NCBI RefSeq assembly: GCF_028622115.1
Contig: NZ_CP097263.1
Location: forward strand, 1,116,001-1,180,000
Length of the DNA: 64,000 nt
Origin: Kutzneria chonburiensis
GTDB taxonomy: Bacteria; Actinomycetota; Actinomycetes; Mycobacteriales; Pseudonocardiaceae
Direction: 5' to 3'
Both the position numbers and the translations under genes were made by a program. Below the pieces are notes generated by a model. It was given only the letters and a program-made list of their open reading frames with translations, made no database searches and had not been told where the DNA came from. This document shows positions 56,251-64,000 of the stretch, piece by piece (positions within the stretch are counted from its first letter, which is position 1; each line of letters starts with the position of its first letter).

Positions 56251-57786
56251 TCAGGTCACCTGGACCTGCCGCACCACCGTCGTCTCGTCGAACTCCGAGG
56301 TGCGAACCGTGATCGCCAGCCGCCACCGGCCGGCGAACGGCAGCTCCGTGCTGCCCGCGCGGTAGCCGCCCATGGCCATGCCGGTACGGCGGATCGGCAC
56401 CGGCATCGGGCCGATTCCCTTGTCCGGCATGGACAACTCCGCGTCCAGCTCGGCAACGTCGATGCGCATGCCGGTGCGGTCCGTGACGGTGACGGCGATG
56501 ATGTTCGGGCCGACCGTGCCCGGCACGATGCCGATCTGTAGCCGGCCCTGGCCGTGCGGGCCGCCGGTGTCGAACGCCAGCGGGCCTTCGGGGGACAGCG
56601 GCGGGCGGCCGGGATCGGTGGTGACCAGCGCGGCCGTCAGGGCGAGCACGACCATCGCCCCGAGCGCCTCGACCAGCACCGATCGCCGGACTGCGGCCGA
56701 CCGCAGCCAACGTCGGGAGAACCATGCGGCGTACAGGATCACCAGCACCACACCGACTTTGACCGCCAACAGCCGCGCGTAGGCGGTGTCGAGCGAGCTG
56801 AGTTGCTGCCAGCTCTGGAAAAGGCCGGTGGCGATGAGCACCGCGACGCTGGCCAGGGCGACCCGGCTGAACCGGGCGATCGCCGCGGGTGGCGGCTTGG
56901 CCAGCAGGATCACCGCCAGCCCGCCGAGCCACAACGCCATCGCGTCCAGGTGCAGCACGTCGGCCGGCAGCGTGGCCGGGCCGGCGGCGTGCCCGGACAC
57001 CGACCACGTCAGCGCCAGGCCGTTGAGCAGCAGGGCCGCGATGGTGCGGCGGCCGCGAGGGAACGCGTCGGCGATCACCGGCGCGGTCAGGGCCAGCAGG
57101 GACAGCCGAAGCACCAGGCCCGTGCCTAGCGGGATGCCCAAGGTGACCGCCAGCAGGCCGCCGTCAAGGATGTGGTCGAGGCCCAGACCGGCGCCGTACG
57201 GGCCTTGTAGCACCGCGTCCGCGACGGTGGCGACGGCCAGCGCGATCCAACTGCCCCAGGTCAGCCGCCGGTCGATGGAACCGTTGGGCCAGCACAGGAA
57301 CAGGAACCCGAGCGAACCGGCCAGCCCGGCGAATGCGACGTAGCCGAGCACCCGGAAGATCCAGTACAGCAACGCGACCCCGGGGTCGCCGGTGGGCGCC
57401 GTCGCGGCGGCGACCGTCGCGTGGCCGACGGAGAACGTGAACGCACCCGACACCGGATGTGAGTCCGCCGACTGCACGTGCCAGGACACCGTGTACGTGC
57501 CCGGTGCCCGCGCCTCGATCGCCACGCCGACCGTGTCGGCCCGGCCGTCCACCGGCCCGGCCCTTCCATCGTCCACAGTGGAGCCGTCGGGGCCGAGGAC
57601 CCGAATGCCTTGCGCGCCAACCTGTACGGGCTCGCCGAAGTTCAGCGTCACGCTGGACGGCGCCGTCGCCACCACCGCCGACGGGGCCGGCTGCGTGCCG
57701 AGCAGCGCCGCGTGTGCGGCGGCCTGACCGGCGCTCGCGAACAGCGCCGCGAGGACGCCGGCCAGCACCACCAGCACGGCTCTCAT
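56251..57786 (-). CDS. CopC-CopD fusion copper protein (YcnJ-like)
   Basis: A 511-residue copper-handling protein. A signal peptide is followed by a CopC cupredoxin domain starting HAALLGTQPAPSAVVATAP; the mature N-terminal His is the copper ligand, with SADSHPVSGAF completing the site. Eight membrane helices of a CopD domain follow (about 135-420), then a YtkA-like beta domain (GMRIDVAELDAELSMPDKG). It is cotranscribed with the multicopper oxidase, starting 4 bp after that gene. Confidence 0.9.
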   Translation of the reverse strand: MRAVLVVLAGVLAALFASAGQAAAHAALLGTQPAPSAVVATAPSSVTLNFGEPVQVGAQGIRVLGPDGSTVDDGRAGPVDGRADTVGVAIEARAPGTYTVSWHVQSADSHPVSGAFTFSVGHATVAAATAPTGDPGVALLYWIFRVLGYVAFAGLAGSLGFLFLCWPNGSIDRRLTWGSWIALAVATVADAVLQGPYGAGLGLDHILDGGLLAVTLGIPLGTGLVLRLSLLALTAPVIADAFPRGRRTIAALLLNGLALTWSVSGHAAGPATLPADVLHLDAMALWLGGLAVILLAKPPPAAIARFSRVALASVAVLIATGLFQSWQQLSSLDTAYARLLAVKVGVVLVILYAAWFSRRWLRSAAVRRSVLVEALGAMVVLALTAALVTTDPGRPPLSPEGPLAFDTGGPHGQGRLQIGIVPGTVGPNIIAVTVTDRTGMRIDVAELDAELSMPDKGIGPMPVPIRRTGMAMGGYRAGSTELPFAGRWRLAITVRTSEFDETTVVRQVQVT

Positions 57787-57790
57787 AGGG

Positions 57791-59992
57791 CTACTTGACC
57801 GGTGCGTACGGGCGCATCATCTCGTTGTCCTCGTGGTCGAGGATGTGGCAGTGCCACACGTAGCCCGGGCCGGCCGTCGGGTCGAAGGCGAACCGGTTGA
57901 CGCCCGGCTGCGCGTCGCCGATCGCGGTTTCCGTTGGCGCCCAACGGATAAGCACCCGGTTCACCATGCCGGGACTGATCTTGAAGGTGTCCTTCCAGCC
58001 CGCCTCGGACTCCTCCGGCGGCTGGGCCGCAGCGGTCAGGAACGGGCCGATCGCCGGGTTGCCGCCGAGCGCGCCGTCCGCGTTGGGCGTCAGGTAGTCG
58101 CGCGGGGGCCCGTAGCCGGGAATGATCTCGCCCGGCGCGTACGCGGTGCGGCCGAAGGAGCCGTCGCACTGCTGGCCGGCGAACGTGCCGCCGGGGAACA
58201 TCGCCGCCCACGCCGCGCGGTAGCCGTCCACGTCGACGGCCTGCCGGTTGAGCACCTGGAACTGGATCAGGTGGATGTGGATGGGGTGCGCGTCGTCGGT
58301 GATGTCCAGCAGCTCCCACAGTTCCGTCGCACCGACCCGTGGCAGCTCGGTCAGGAACACGCCGGTGTTGGCGCGGGCGCCGGGGATCGGCGTGGTCGTC
58401 CCGTCCCGCAGGCCGTTCCACTTGCTGTTGTTCAGGAACGCTTCCAGCGGGCCGTCGCTGACGTCCGACACCGCGCAGTCGACCGTCTCCTGCTCGAACA
58501 CGACAAGCTGCCGTTTCACCGTCGGCCGCACGCCCGCCGCGATCGTGCCCGTCGCCGGGTCGGCCAGCCGCACGATCGCCGGCGGCTGCCCGTTCCCGCC
58601 GCGCAGCGCCGCACCGGTCGCCGGGTTGTAGGTCGTGTCCGGGCCAGAAAGACGCTGCGTCACGTCGAACCGCATCAGCTGGCCGTCCAGGTTCGGGTCC
58701 GGCGGGCCGCCGCTCGGGTACGGGAACAGGCCGTCGTTGGTCAGCACCAGCGACCGGCCCCGCAGGCCGCTGAAGTCGATGATCACGTCCGCCCGCTCCG
58801 ACGGCGCCAGGAACAGCTTCGGCGCATCGGCCTTGGCCGGATCGGCCAGCTTCGCCGGCCGGTCGAGCAGGCCGCCGTCGGTGCCGATCTGCCACATCGC
58901 CACCGCCGACGGTGGCGTCGTCGAGGACGCGTTCGCCGGGTCGGTCAGGTTCATCCGCAGGAAACGCGCGTTGCACGCGTTGAGGAACCGGAAGCGGTAG
59001 CGCCGCGGCTCCACCGCCAGCACCGGCCAGGTCCGGCCGTTGACCACCATCGCGTCGCCGAAGAACTCCGGGATCCAGAACGGGTGCGACAGCGGGTTGG
59101 ACGGCGGCCCGTTCAGGTCGGCGTCCGGGTTGCTGCCGTCCGGGAAGCGCAGCTGGCCGTTGGTGGCGAACAGCCGGTCCTGGAGCATCAGCTCGATCTC
59201 GAACCGGCCGGCCGGCAGCCGCAGCGGATTGTCCGCCCGGCCCGTGTCGAACCTGTCGCGGACGAGGTAGAACGCGGCCAGGCCGCTCAGCACGGTGACC
59301 CTGGTGATGCCCAGCGTGTGATCGTGGAACCACAACGCCGTCGCCGGCTGCGTGTTCGGGTAGCAGTACACCGCGGCGTTCGCCGCCGTCGGATTCGCCG
59401 TGCTGTAGGCCGGTCCGTGCCGGCCGTCCGGCGTGAACCACGCTTCCGGCAGGCCGTCGAAGGCCGCCGGGACCTCCGCCCCGTGCAGGTGCACCACCCC
59501 CGGCATCGGCCCGGTGTACGGCTGCGACGCCTTCACCACGCCCAGCGGGTCCGCCCAGTGGATCGTCTGGTCGACCGTCAGCAGCGGCTGCACCCGTGAA
59601 CTGCGGGGGAGGCCGTTGACGTACGTGATCGTCGTCGCCGTGCCCCGGGTCGCTTCCACCGTCGCCCCCGGCCACGACGCCGGCCGGCCGTCCACCTGGT
59701 AGGCCCACACCACCGTGCCGTCCGCGTGCCCCGCCGGGTACATCGAGCTCGGCAACACCAGTTGGGGCGCCTCCACGAACCGCGTCGTGAAGGCCGATCC
59801 CGACACCCGCGCGAGCGTCCGCAGCTGGGTCACGTACTTCGGGATCCTCGAGCTCGGCAGCGGCGTCTGCGCCTGCGGCACCGACTGGGCCACCGGCCCG
59901 CCCACCGCCGCCAGCCCCTTCGCCGCCGGGAAGGCCACCGCCCCCACCGCCGCACCGGCCACGAGCAACTGCCTTCTGCTGATCCCCGCCAT
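57791..59992 (-). CDS. Tat-exported multicopper oxidase
   Basis: A 733-residue three-domain multicopper oxidase. Tat motif ISRRQLLVAGAAVG at the N-terminus. Copper ligands are VVHLHGAEV, WFHDHTLGI, HPIHIHLIQF and WHCHILDHEDNEMMRP, giving the trinuclear and type-1 sites. It is of the CotA/bilirubin-oxidase/phenoxazinone-synthase type, likely oxidising Cu(I) or phenolics in copper defence. ATG 59992 has GGAGG 6 nt upstream; the frame open to 60031 is rejected. Confidence 0.92.
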   Translation of the reverse strand: MAGISRRQLLVAGAAVGAVAFPAAKGLAAVGGPVAQSVPQAQTPLPSSRIPKYVTQLRTLARVSGSAFTTRFVEAPQLVLPSSMYPAGHADGTVVWAYQVDGRPASWPGATVEATRGTATTITYVNGLPRSSRVQPLLTVDQTIHWADPLGVVKASQPYTGPMPGVVHLHGAEVPAAFDGLPEAWFTPDGRHGPAYSTANPTAANAAVYCYPNTQPATALWFHDHTLGITRVTVLSGLAAFYLVRDRFDTGRADNPLRLPAGRFEIELMLQDRLFATNGQLRFPDGSNPDADLNGPPSNPLSHPFWIPEFFGDAMVVNGRTWPVLAVEPRRYRFRFLNACNARFLRMNLTDPANASSTTPPSAVAMWQIGTDGGLLDRPAKLADPAKADAPKLFLAPSERADVIIDFSGLRGRSLVLTNDGLFPYPSGGPPDPNLDGQLMRFDVTQRLSGPDTTYNPATGAALRGGNGQPPAIVRLADPATGTIAAGVRPTVKRQLVVFEQETVDCAVSDVSDGPLEAFLNNSKWNGLRDGTTTPIPGARANTGVFLTELPRVGATELWELLDITDDAHPIHIHLIQFQVLNRQAVDVDGYRAAWAAMFPGGTFAGQQCDGSFGRTAYAPGEIIPGYGPPRDYLTPNADGALGGNPAIGPFLTAAAQPPEESEAGWKDTFKISPGMVNRVLIRWAPTETAIGDAQPGVNRFAFDPTAGPGYVWHCHILDHEDNEMMRPYAPVK

Positions 59993-60052
59993 GACTGGCC
60001 TCCGGGTTCGCACGCCCCCGGCCGGCAACATAACCAGCGCGCATCGTGCCGA

Positions 60053-60157: not shown

Positions 60158-60661
60158 GTGATGGTCGACCTGGAGATCCACCCCGTGCGCCCGGACGAAG
60201 CGCCGGCTCTCGGCGCGGCAGGCGGACAGGCCGGCTACGTCCGCGACCGGCTGGCTCGCCAGTCCGAGGGCCGTGGGCTGCTCCTCGCCGCCTGGCTGGG
60301 CGGCGAGGCCGTGGGTAGCGTCTACCTGTGGCTGGAGGCCGCCGAGGAGCCCGAGATCCGCGAGCACCTGCCGGAGACGCCCCTGCTCACCCACATCGAG
60401 GTGTTCGCCGGCCATCGCAACCAGGGCATCGGCACGCAGCTGGTCGAGACCGCCGAGCAGCTGCTGCGGGCGCGTGGTCACAAGGCCGTCGTGCTGGCCG
60501 TGGAGCAATCCAATGACGGTGCGGAACGGTTGTACAAGCGCCTCGGTTACCAGGACTGGGATTTCGGCCCGGTGCGCTGCGTTCAGCGTGAGTGGCTGCC
60601 GGACGGCACCCTGGAGGAAACGCGGGAGGAATGCACCGTCCTGGTGAAGCTCCTCGGCTGA
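60158..60661 (+). CDS. GNAT-family acetyltransferase
   Basis: A 167-residue GNAT protein: THIEVFAGHRNQGIGTQLVE contains the acetyl-CoA loop, then VVLAVEQSNDGAERLYKRLG. GTG 60158 or ATG 60161. Divergent from the copper operon. Its last 79 bp overlap the 3' end of the convergent glycosyltransferase gene. Substrate unknown. Confidence 0.85.
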   Translation: MMVDLEIHPVRPDEAPALGAAGGQAGYVRDRLARQSEGRGLLLAAWLGGEAVGSVYLWLEAAEEPEIREHLPETPLLTHIEVFAGHRNQGIGTQLVETAEQLLRARGHKAVVLAVEQSNDGAERLYKRLGYQDWDFGPVRCVQREWLPDGTLEETREECTVLVKLLG

Positions 60662-61776
60662 GCAATACCGAGCGTCAGCAGCACGTCGTCCACATCCTTG
60701 GGTCCGGTGAACAGCTGGGCCTGCCGTTCCAGATGCCGCCGCCATTTCGTTCGGTCCGTGCGCCATGCCTTGAGGTACGCCACGCACAATTCCGGCGTGA
60801 TGAGCGTGCACCGGCCCCGCGCGGCCCGCAACGCCGATTTCATTCGCTCCCGCGCGCCATCGCCGATATCGGACTCATCGGCCCGGCGCAGCACGTCGTT
60901 GATGAACGCGTGCCGCTTGGCCAGGTACTTCCGCCAGTACTCGACATCCGCGTCCTGGACGCGCTTGCCCTGGTCCAGCAGCCAGAACACGCCCTCGGCG
61001 AGCACATCGCCGAACTCTTCGGTGCGTGCCCGCTGCTCGTTGGCGAAGGGGTCGTACGGCTTCTGCACCGCCAGCCCGGCCGTCTTGGCGATCGGGCGCA
61101 GCCGGGTGTCGTTGAGCAGGAAGAACCAGTCCTCGTTGTAGACGTCCGGAAAGAACGACTCGAACGAGGTGGCGTTCACCGCCAACGCGCCGCCGCCGAC
61201 GAACGTGTCCTGGAAACCGCCGGTCTGGCGGTGCGCGTGGCACACCACGGAATTGTCCGGGAATCCGCCGACCGTGAGGCCGACCCCGTCGAAATGGTGC
61301 AGCAGCCGCACCGCGTCGGTGAGGTGCTGGTGGTCCGGGATGTCGATGTCGTCGTCGAGGAAGACGACGTGTTTCCAGCCGGCCAGCCGCGCCACCAGCA
61401 GCCCGACGTTGCGTTTGCGGCTGGTGTCCGTGCCGCGGGCGAACGGCGTGCCGGCCAGCAGCGCGGTCGTGCCGAAGGTCGGAAGCAATGCGGGGGAGAC
61501 GTCCTTCATGTCCACCGCGGCGATGTCGACGCCACTGGACCAGGCCAGGCTGCGCACCTCGGCGACCCGCGAGCGCTGGCTGTTCAGCGTGACCAGCGTG
61601 CAGCGCAGCTTCGCGGCCAGCTCAACGGCTCGCCGCAGGTAGCCGGCCGGTCGGGAGGTCGGCACGACGATCGCGTCGACCTCGCAGGTGCCGAGCGGCG
61701 GCTCGGCGACGTGGGCCAGCAGAGTGCGGTGGGAGCCATGGTGGAGCGTGGCCCCGTCGACGACGGCTTCGGTCAA
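60583..61776 (-). CDS. GT-A-fold glycosyltransferase-like protein
   Basis: A 397-residue protein with a GT-A-like core. The sugar-nucleotide strand VDAIVVPTSRPAGYLRRAVEL and metal motif HVVFLDDDIDIPDHQHL (D-x-D) are clear, with an acceptor-side segment YNEDWFFLLND. The C-terminal quarter is helical (VEYWRKYLAKRHAFINDVLR). TTG 61776 is preferred: GGAGG lies 7 nt upstream and it forms a 4-bp TTGA overlap with the upstream gene's stop; ATG 61794 is the alternative. It is tightly coupled to the HTH gene. Confidence 0.75.
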   Translation of the reverse strand: MTEAVVDGATLHHGSHRTLLAHVAEPPLGTCEVDAIVVPTSRPAGYLRRAVELAAKLRCTLVTLNSQRSRVAEVRSLAWSSGVDIAAVDMKDVSPALLPTFGTTALLAGTPFARGTDTSRKRNVGLLVARLAGWKHVVFLDDDIDIPDHQHLTDAVRLLHHFDGVGLTVGGFPDNSVVCHAHRQTGGFQDTFVGGGALAVNATSFESFFPDVYNEDWFFLLNDTRLRPIAKTAGLAVQKPYDPFANEQRARTEEFGDVLAEGVFWLLDQGKRVQDADVEYWRKYLAKRHAFINDVLRRADESDIGDGARERMKSALRAARGRCTLITPELCVAYLKAWRTDRTKWRRHLERQAQLFTGPKDVDDVLLTLGIAQPRSFTRTVHSSRVSSRVPSGSHSR

Positions 61777-62855
61777 CTCGCGGCCTCCGGCCATTCGTGC
61801 AGCCGGGTCTCGGCGACGGTCCAGTCGGGGGTGACTACCTGGCCGGCCACCACCTGCACGCGCATCAGCAAGCTGTACACGCCGTGCCGGTCGAGCTGGT
61901 TACGCACGTAGTCGTCGTTGCGCCCGCGGAACTTGGCGTCGGTCAGCGCCCGCACCGCCCCGTAGGTGCCGCGGCCGTACATGCCGTTGCAGATGGTCAC
62001 CGTGCGGGCCACGTTGAACGGGTTCTCGCCCCGGTAGAAGTGGGCCACGTCCTCCAGCAGCCGGCCGCCGCGCACGGTCGGCGAGTACATCCGCGGGCCG
62101 TGCTCGTCGGTCACCTCGAAGCCGCTGGGCTCCTCGGTGGTCGGCCGGGTGATCTGCTCCACGGGGACGTCTACGCGCTCGAGCAGCTCCCGGGTCAGTC
62201 GGTTCCAGTCGACGCCGCCGAGCAGCACCAGGTGCGCGGTGTAGTCGTCCCGCTCGAGCTGGTCGACCGTCTTGAACCGGACGTTGCTGACCGAGTTGAC
62301 CGCGCGGATGTGGCCGAACAGCTCGATCAGCGCGTCGGGATCCGCGTAGGTGTACAGGTCGACGTAGTCGGGGTCGTTCGGATCCGTGTAGGAGCCCATG
62401 GAGTGCATCAGGTCCCGGGGCAGCCGGGCGCAGACGATGACGATGTTGTAGCTGTCCGGGAACTGCCACAGCCCCTTCGAGTGCGGGGCCGCGGTGAGAT
62501 GGGCCCCGCGCTGGCCCGGTAGCTCCGGCCGCAGCGTGGTCAGCTGGTCGAGCAGCTCCTCGTAGGCCAGCCGTTCCGCCGTGTTCAGTTCGTCCACGGT
62601 GAGCAGTCGGAACGTGCCTTCCTCGGCCGACCTGACCGTGGCGAAGAACCTCGCGTACTGCTCAAGGCGGGCCGTCGGCGGCGGCTTGGGCGAGGTCGTG
62701 CTCTCCCATGAGGAGATCAGGGGCACGCTCGTCGACCGCTCAGCGCTGAACGCCTCGGCCAGCTGGCCCTGCGTCACGGGTCGGCCCGGCCACGCGCCTT
62801 CCCGCAACGTCCGAAGGCGCTGGGGTAGAGCTTGGGGGAGAGAGGTCGGCTGCAC
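61773..62855 (-). CDS. HTH protein with uncharacterised C-terminal sensor-like domain
   Basis: A 360-residue protein. The N-terminal XRE HTH (about residues 10-70) includes VTQGQLAEAF and VPLISSWES. The rest is an uncharacterised alpha/beta domain with NIVIVCARLPRDLM, DYVDLYTYADPDALIELFGHI and HLVLLGGVDWNRLTREL, suggesting a Rossmann-like ligand- or nucleotide-binding fold. It forms a two-gene unit with the glycosyltransferase. GAAGTT boxes lie immediately upstream and across the next intergenic space. Confidence 0.7.
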   Translation of the reverse strand: MQPTSLPQALPQRLRTLREGAWPGRPVTQGQLAEAFSAERSTSVPLISSWESTTSPKPPPTARLEQYARFFATVRSAEEGTFRLLTVDELNTAERLAYEELLDQLTTLRPELPGQRGAHLTAAPHSKGLWQFPDSYNIVIVCARLPRDLMHSMGSYTDPNDPDYVDLYTYADPDALIELFGHIRAVNSVSNVRFKTVDQLERDDYTAHLVLLGGVDWNRLTRELLERVDVPVEQITRPTTEEPSGFEVTDEHGPRMYSPTVRGGRLLEDVAHFYRGENPFNVARTVTICNGMYGRGTYGAVRALTDAKFRGRNDDYVRNQLDRHGVYSLLMRVQVVAGQVVTPDWTVAETRLHEWPEAAS

Positions 62856-62873
62856 GGCGGTGAACCCCTTCAG

Positions 62874-63040
62874 TTAACTTCACCCTACCCTGCTGAAGCT
62901 GGCACGGTACACCCGGGGCCAGGTGTACCGATGTAGCCATCCCACTGGCGTGTCGCCGCCCCTTGTCGACCAGCGCCTCACACTCTAAGCTGAACTTCAC
63001 TAGAGCTCAAACTGAAGTTGGCTGAGTCTGGTGAAGTTCA
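62874..63040. promoter_or_regulatory. Four GAAGTT/AACTTC boxes around the HTH gene promoter
   Basis: Sites: TTAACTTCAC (62874-62883), TGAACTTCAC (62991-63000), CTGAAGTTG (63012-63020) and GTGAAGTTCA (63031-63040). The second and fourth form a perfect 10-bp inverted repeat around the third. The first lies 18 bp upstream of the HTH ATG; the last lies 21 bp before the small ORF. A shared operator for the divergent genes is likely. Confidence 0.55.
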
Positions 63041-63061
63041 TGATGTTTCAGGAGGTGGACG

Positions 63062-63157
63062 ATGAACCACCGTGCCAGGCAGCCCCCGGTGGCAGTGTCC
63101 CGTCCTGCCCCGTACGGCACCCGGTCGGCCGCGCCGGCGTCTTCACACCGCCCCTGA
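63062..63157 (+). CDS. Small ORF, 31 residues
   Basis: ATG 63062 has one of the strongest ribosome sites in the window, AGGAGG 6 nt upstream, and encodes a 31-residue basic, Pro-rich peptide (MNHRARQPPVAVSRPAP onward). It lies directly downstream of three GAAGTT boxes and 32 bp before a small membrane-protein gene. It may be a regulatory or secreted peptide, or the first gene of a two-gene operon. No homologous family is recognised. Confidence 0.5.
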   Translation: MNHRARQPPVAVSRPAPYGTRSAAPASSHRP

Positions 63158-63188
63158 CCCCGCATCACCCGCACCGCCGGGAGTTGCC

Positions 63189-63401
63189 ATGAACAGCTCG
63201 GATATGTCCCTCATGTTCGCCGGCACGCTGGTGCTCGGCGTCCTGCTGCTGATCGCCGTGGTCCGCATGCTCGGCCGGATCCTGTCCTCGGTGCACGACC
63301 TGCTCGGCACGGCCGGCCGCGCGGTGGCGGTGATGGTGTTCGCCTCCACGGTGTGCGGCGTGCTGCTCACGACGATGGTGCTGTCGATGGGCCACGCCTG
63401 A
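63189..63401 (+). CDS. Small two-helix membrane protein
   Basis: A 70-residue protein with two membrane helices (LMFAGTLVLGVLLLIAVVRML and AVAVMVFASTVCGVLLTTMVL) joined by an amphipathic loop. ATG 63189 is preceded by GGGAG. It follows the 31-residue ORF and may be cotranscribed with it under the GAAGTT boxes. Function unknown. Confidence 0.65.
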   Translation: MNSSDMSLMFAGTLVLGVLLLIAVVRMLGRILSSVHDLLGTAGRAVAVMVFASTVCGVLLTTMVLSMGHA

Positions 63402-63405
63402 CGCC

Positions 63406-64000
63406 TTACGACGCCGCGGCGGCGTTGTTGTCTGCCGGGTGGCCGCTGGGCGTGGTGCCGGTGGACGCGGCGATCGAGGTCGGGGCGACCAGGGTGCTGC
63501 CCTGGGGACCGGCCTGGACGGCCTGGTGGGTGGCGCTCTTGCCGAGCAGGGTCTGCCAGCTGTCGAACCAGTCGGTCCAGCCGTCGCCGGGCGTGCCGGC
63601 CAGCGGGCTGCCGATGATGGTCACGGGGTCGCCGGGCAGCTCTTCCTCGTAGTAGGTCTGAGCGGCCTCGGGCGACATGTTGACGCAGCCGTGGCTGACG
63701 TCCTCGCTGCCCTGCTGCCCGACCGACCAGTAGGCGTCGTGCAGGTAGTCGCCGCTCCACGTGAAGCGCACGGACCACGGCACCTTGAGGTCGTAGTAGC
63801 CCGGACCGCCGGGGGCGATGTCGGACGGCTTCATCTCGACGGGGTTGCCCTTGTCGATGGTCAGGTAGGTGCCGTTGGGCGTGTCGTGCCCGGGCCTGCC
63901 GGTGCTGATGGCCCAGTCGTACTGGAGGTTGCCGTTCTTGAACACCTGCATCCGGTGGCCGGAGGTGCTGGCGACGACGACGAGGGAGTCGCCGATGCTG
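63406..64000 (-). CDS. L,D-transpeptidase (YkuD domain), 5' end beyond the window
   Basis: A partial gene reading in from the right edge. The YkuD domain is nearly complete: MQVFKNGNLQYDWAISTGRP, then DAYWSVGQQGSEDVSHGCVN with the catalytic Cys in the SHGCVN motif, and EELPGDPVTIIGSP. These enzymes form 3-3 peptidoglycan cross-links and resist most beta-lactams. A 50-residue Ala/Thr/Pro tail follows. The signal peptide and any Ig-like domains lie outside the window. Confidence 0.88.
   Translation of the reverse strand, partial: SIGDSLVVVASTSGHRMQVFKNGNLQYDWAISTGRPGHDTPNGTYLTIDKGNPVEMKPSDIAPGGPGYYDLKVPWSVRFTWSGDYLHDAYWSVGQQGSEDVSHGCVNMSPEAAQTYYEEELPGDPVTIIGSPLAGTPGDGWTDWFDSWQTLLGKSATHQAVQAGPQGSTLVAPTSIAASTGTTPSGHPADNNAAAAS

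Follow-up and report, generated by a model that had tools for sequence, protein, structure and literature searches.

A candidate autorepressed sensor switch linked to a glycosyltransferase gene in Kutzneria chonburiensis

Does a regulator gene that overlaps a glycosyltransferase (GT) gene, and faces a small peptide gene across a short intergenic region, form one regulated unit with these neighbours, and what would such a unit do? The question is raised by a locus near the end of a stretch of 64,000 nucleotides (the window) from the 10.4-Mb genome of Kutzneria chonburiensis (Pseudonocardiaceae; assembly GCF_028622115.1, contig NZ_CP097263.1, positions 1,116,001 to 1,180,000). A first-pass annotation, made from the letters of the window, had proposed a self-contained system in which a helix-turn-helix (HTH) protein would sense a metabolite or nucleotide signal and repress itself and a divergent peptide/membrane-protein pair, with the GT modifying a target. 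Comparison with related genomes points to an autorepressed sensor switch that would drive a glycosyl/acyl-modifying operon together with a swappable divergent output; we give this reading a probability of about 55%. The features on which it is built are the following (positions in the window).

60158-60661, plus strand: GNAT acetyltransferase gene, convergent with the GT gene and overlapping its 3' end; conserved together with the HTH and GT genes
60583-61794, minus strand: GT2-like glycosyltransferase of the GT-A type, 403 amino acids from an ATG (or from a TTG start at 61776)
61773-61776, minus strand: TTGA stop/start overlap of the HTH and GT genes, with GGAGG upstream
61773-62855, minus strand: HTH-sensor protein, 360 amino acids, with an XRE-type HTH (about residues 10-75) and an unnamed C-terminal domain (about 125-360)
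62876-62898, minus strand: candidate operator 1, CTTCAG-N10-TGAAGTT, preceding the HTH start codon by 20 nt
62993-63017, minus strand: candidate operator 2, CTTCAG-N12-TGAAGTT, preceding the peptide start codon by 44 nt
63032-63040, no strand assigned: a further palindromic box, TGAAGTTCA, in the gap from operator 2 to the ribosome-binding site
63050-63055, plus strand: ribosome-binding site AGGAGG of the small open reading frame (ORF)
63062-63157, plus strand: 31-codon Pro/Arg-rich peptide ORF
63189-63401, plus strand: divergent gene for a two-helix membrane protein of 70 amino acids (helices from a hydropathy window)

The HTH, GT, peptide and membrane-protein genes were all found where the first-pass annotation had placed them, and the TTGA overlap was present as described, the HTH stop codon TGA sharing bases with the TTG. 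If translation of the GT starts at the in-frame ATG further upstream, the overlap of the two genes is 22 nt.

The HTH and GT genes recur together across the family. The HTH protein was matched in 17 of 60 relatives (its own genome included) and its profile in 139 of 390 genomes of the family; beyond the family, 5 of 24 genomes of the same order had it, and none of 395 other genomes of the phylum, for each of which five candidates were scored. The GT profile matched 105 of the 390 genomes, and 103 of these also matched the HTH-sensor profile (Fisher p ~4e-60, uncorrected for relatedness). Stretches of relatives (L-codes) were fetched for part of the HTH-profile matches in the 390 family genomes (G-codes). 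Gene counts refer to the 132 full-length HTH genes kept, in 123 distinct stretches (1.32 Mb); profile matches that started past position 60 or covered fewer than 200 positions (L036, L089-L098 and L107, for example) were left out, and both the gene spacings and the divergent partners were estimated by means of profile alignments and GC-based gene calls. The GT gene directly followed the HTH gene in 104 of the 132 cases, with a negative estimated spacing, that is an overlap, in 90 of the 104. The 103 stretches carrying both genes formed 23 neighbourhood clusters, between which no flanking gene is common when a few kb of flank are compared, so the pair is not kept by a common flank.

The conserved set is wider than the unit first drawn. 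A GNAT gene stood behind 70 of the 132 HTH genes, always on the opposite strand and in 69 cases with a GT gene; in the window it lies mostly outside the range assigned to the unit, which is therefore not self-contained in that form. Nor is the divergent partner usually a membrane gene: that slot held a class III cyclase-like gene in 61 of the 132 cases and a small membrane gene, as in the window, in 31. The commonest set was GT, GNAT and cyclase-like gene (57 cases), while the window has GT, GNAT and membrane gene. The mutual exclusion of the two divergent genes is in part a product of the count, which takes the nearest gene and so allows one per locus. A quick tree built from 73 HTH proteins placed the window's clade among cyclase-type rows, suggesting that the divergent gene was exchanged between relatives; support for the joining branch was modest (80).

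The second line of evidence lies in the 206-bp region between the HTH and peptide genes. The four GAAGTT/AACTTC hexamers reported there were confirmed (starting at 62876, 62993, 63014 and 63033), and none of 2000 dinucleotide shuffles reached four (mean 0.10). They make up two inverted-repeat candidate operators of the form CTTCAG-N10/12-TGAAGTT. This composite occurs twice in the whole genome, once at each of the two divergent promoters, which favours one regulated unit, as first proposed. In the stretches around the 132 HTH genes all 72 distinct exact composites lay between positions -700 and +60 relative to an HTH start, and for the reversed pattern such a count gave 0. The box was also recovered without a prior motif when every word of 7 to 9 letters in the upstream regions of 72 nonredundant HTH genes was counted and set against 520 background pieces. 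The top 7-mer, CTGAAGT, was present at 51 of 72 genes and in 9 of 520 pieces, and the top 9-mer, TTCACTGAA, at 29 of 72 and in 1 of 520. Conservation of the boxes, left by the first-pass annotation as a point to be checked, thus extends to distant HTH homologues. In one related group a further word, CGTTTGGCC, was found upstream in 7 of 18 stretches, against 2 of the 520 background pieces; L030, L032, L033 and L080 have GGCCAAACG or a hairpin-like element resembling it close to the divergent promoter. Rfam gave two matches, both below the gathering score.

A sister HTH clade, whose recognition helix differs, carries a different box: CTTAACTGACTTAAC was present in five of seven members, and the other two had a variant differing by one or two bases. 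This switching of the box with HTH clade and recognition helix suggests that the HTH protein reads the boxes, and is the strongest sequence evidence for it, short of proof. Sister-clade loci L034, L035, L087, L182, L183 (which has a variant box) and L184 lack this GT. Their HTH genes are divergent from a 2OG-Fe(II) oxygenase-like gene (L034 by Pfam, the others by eye), and most have a small membrane gene downstream. The shorter palindrome TGAASTTCA was tried as a genome-wide operator marker and discarded as uninformative: it had 82 matches per strand, being counted on both strands, against 21 for the reversed pattern, a background that probably comes from the common codon run GTG AAG TTC.

The regulator itself was assigned through its relatives. 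Of 17 family members, Pfam detected HTH_31 in 14 and HTH_3 in 11, with a best value of 5e-12, and it detected neither in the window protein alone; judged by these matches, the protein family is one of XRE/HTH_31 regulators. The C-terminal domain, which we regard as the sensor, gave no family match over the cut-off; the closest was Pfam HalOD1, which 6 of 17 members hit with a score under the threshold (lowest E 0.019). Its predicted structure, from a two-sequence alignment of the window and L021 proteins, had a mean pLDDT of 34.5, too low to be usable. The first-pass annotation knew no family name for the arrangement, and none of the family models searched names the HTH-sensor protein or the GT. 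Like XRE one-component regulators with HTH_31 or HTH_3, the window protein carries its HTH at the N-terminus and an extra domain at the other end, with palindromic sites at the promoter of its own gene; unlike them, its C-terminal domain lacks a family match and its gene overlaps a glycosyltransferase gene. The HTH gene of Kutzneria sp. 744 is 78% identical in the best segment of the collection scan. Elsewhere the sensor domain occurs with an HTH_31 detected by Pfam (L097) or on a different, unnamed N-terminal part (L036, L089-L096). In L036 the gene adjoins a lantibiotic-like gene set (by eye), and L032, L084, L177, L179 and L181 hold a tandem pair of HTH-sensor genes without a GT gene.

For the enzyme, a GT-A assignment was supported by profile comparison. 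The GT family profile aligned to GT2 with an hhalign probability of 93.9 over 100 columns, against 0.1-6.0 for eight control pairs. Pfam Glycos_transf_2 gave no match over the cut-off, and among the 11 GT members one was hit at E=0.21. The motifs DDD and NEDW were invariant in all 11, which suggests that catalysis matters. The GT resembles GT2 (PF00535) in the GT-A N-terminal half by profile, in the RN and FLDDD region and in the ED of YNEDW; it differs in being too divergent for Pfam, in its long unmatched C-terminal part and in its tie to the HTH gene. A structure prediction from a two-sequence alignment (window and L021) had a mean pLDDT of 40.5. Extra GT copies were seen near the HTH-sensor gene at G117:C3:672935-680002, G206:C1:4204787-4212491 and G266:C482:1628-9112.

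What the enzymes may do together is indicated by the partners found beside the sensor domain in other loci. A hexapeptide domain is fused to the GT itself in L080 and L086, and the GT of L085 has a like length. In L102 an XRE-form sensor adjoins a GT2 gene and a separate hexapeptide gene, and in L089 the sensor domain adjoins a GT25 gene with a hexapeptide acyltransferase gene nearby (both by Pfam). Because different GT/acyltransferase pairs stand beside one sensor domain, a sugar-plus-acyl modification appears the likeliest job of the enzymes. Where read by eye, the other loci with this form of the sensor (L090-L096 and L036) are like L089. On the far side of the GNAT gene, the window carries multicopper-oxidase-like and CopC/CopD-like genes (56251-60031, named by eye), which lie between it and an alcohol dehydrogenase gene; tblastn found neither kind in L021-L024.

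The divergent gene of the 61 relatives, absent from the window, appears to be cyclase-like by the criteria for class III nucleotidyl cyclases. Six of its seven PDB matches up to E=10 were cyclases (best 0.003), and D18 and D63, which we take to be the metal-binding aspartates of class III cyclases, were invariant in 9 of 9 members; no Pfam cyclase model matched. In L106 the gene is followed by one with cNMP-binding and Crp domains, an arrangement that fits the presence of a genuine cyclic nucleotide in this branch. The cyclase-like family matched in 76 of 200 genomes and has many copies elsewhere in them, so it is not private to the locus. Pycsar systems encode a cyclase together with a membrane or TIR effector. 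None of the 61 cyclase-type genes had a small membrane ORF in the divergent stretch searched, a search that covered neither TIR domains nor further neighbours.

In the window the divergent side begins with the peptide ORF, whose near-perfect AGGAGG was confirmed 6 nt before the ATG. The ORF was present in all four Kutzneria loci of the membrane type, the window included, with 31, 34, 48 and 32 codons. All four share the start (MNH), the AGGAGG and a final HRP, with pN/pS of 0.43-0.66. The small ORF is thus conserved and looks translated, which bears out the first-pass annotation in part, but within these four loci only; in other genera, reading by eye showed none ahead of the membrane genes. 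We consider, with moderate confidence, that it encodes a leader or an accessory peptide and is translated. The four loci speak against the ORF being just a piece of a longer N-terminus of the membrane protein, because the distance from its stop to the membrane-protein ATG varies (31, 32, 31 and 32 nt), and because its start, ribosome-binding site and stop are kept while length changes stay in frame. The two-helix proteins of Kutzneria and of other genera are 22-29% identical in the alignment and are likely homologous, short of proof. The membrane gene converges with a gene for an L,D-transpeptidase (YkuD), at 63406-64000 in the window, and the four Kutzneria loci all keep this YkuD gene at that place.

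In the switch that we propose, the HTH protein would, without a signal, bind the two inverted-repeat operators and repress both its own HTH-GT operon and the divergent peptide and membrane-protein genes. A ligand meeting the C-terminal domain would lift the repression. The GT would then glycosylate, and the neighbouring acetyltransferase acylate, a shared target, for which a cell-envelope component or a small metabolite is the likeliest candidate, and the divergent gene would provide a second output, a two-helix membrane protein here and a cyclase-like protein in most relatives. Repression rather than activation is inferred from the position of the sites and the palindromes alone, since no sigma-70-type promoter was found at the locus.

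That missing promoter is one of several points that weigh against the proposal. A reversed control pattern occurs three times in the same genome, so a copy number of two is in itself unremarkable, whereas the location of both copies is not. The exact composite was present at just 56 of the 132 HTH genes (18 of the 72 nonredundant ones). At least one copy was found in 162 of the 390 family genomes, some of them without an HTH match (G028, G064), and in some genera the reversed control was about equally frequent; some copies also repeat one identical spacer. Given these scattered copies, exclusivity of the operator is claimed for the window's genome only. In a third clade (6 genes; L081-L083, L185, L187), with a third kind of recognition helix and mostly with the GT, no clear shared box emerged, the best 8-mer being in 3 of 6. 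Finally, a GT gene was absent next to 28 of the 132 HTH genes, and neither divergent partner was detected at 40, among them L074, L137 and L139, whose different flank gene was judged by eye.

The close tie of the two overlapping genes could have another meaning, namely that the GT acts on the regulator, as an antirepressor or as a sensor that binds or modifies the HTH protein, the overlap serving to balance both. The negative spacings and the near absence of the GT from genomes without the HTH-sensor profile (2 of 105) fit this, and there is a precedent. The Listeria protein GmaR is a glycosyltransferase. GmaR is reported to bind the repressor MogR (PMC9638930). The window locus resembles this pair in joining a presumed repressor to a glycosyltransferase protein, and differs in the overlap of the two genes and in the added divergent membrane or cyclase-like gene. 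The 28 HTH genes without an adjoining GT and the invariant catalytic motifs tell against an antirepressor, as does the sensor beside an ordinary GT2 (L102) or a GT25 (L089), because a specific GT-HTH contact would then need several origins. We consider such a role quite unlikely.

A stress or anti-phage conflict cassette, in which the two-helix protein or a cyclase product would be a toxic effector silenced by the HTH protein while GT and GNAT alter a target in the cell or the invader, would explain the patchy distribution, the exchanged divergent gene and the extra GT copies in G117, G206 and G266. Kaur et al. 2020 (PMC7159879) report NTP-dependent conflict systems whose effectors include cyclase, glycosyltransferase and GCN5-like acetyltransferase domains; the kinds of enzyme domain are the same, but the window is a compact divergent locus under an HTH gene. 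Against this explanation, PADLOC models matched none of the four window proteins (HTH, GT, membrane, GNAT), and some of the 17 HTH family members matched regulator-named models only (HTH_VI, RmrA, capH, mad1, control protein), presumably through the HTH. The HTH protein was matched by none of 50,697 phage records and, in plasmids, by a single weak partial hit; the GT, searched in plasmids and not in the phage records, had none. Flanks common within clusters suggest vertical inheritance and not a mobile island, and a conflict role is on balance unlikely. A further alternative, that two unrelated transcription units share the intergenic region and the peptide/membrane gene is a bystander of a sole HTH-GT unit, draws on the variation of the divergent gene between clades and its 40 undetected cases. 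It is very unlikely in view of the full candidate operator at the divergent promoter and of the small two-helix genes that recur at this place in several neighbourhood clusters.

The autorepressed switch remains our preferred reading, and no description of such an HTH-sensor/GT unit was found in the open-licence literature. As a tentative and rather speculative extension, the locus may belong to a new class of signal-gated modification switch, in which an unnamed sensor domain on varied DNA-binding heads gates interchangeable GT/acyltransferase pairs and a plug-in output (either a nucleotide cyclase or a two-helix membrane protein preceded by its peptide leader), with every copy under an operator at its own locus; the GT may feed back on the sensor. 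With about one-third of the sampled family genomes matching the regulator profile, and with a sensor domain and a GT that no searched model names, the locus offers a clean test case: one regulator, two mapped candidate operators, one enzyme pair and one exchangeable output. A ligand, if found, would name a new sensor domain, and a product, if found, would be an example of sugar-acyl modification that is controlled directly at transcription.

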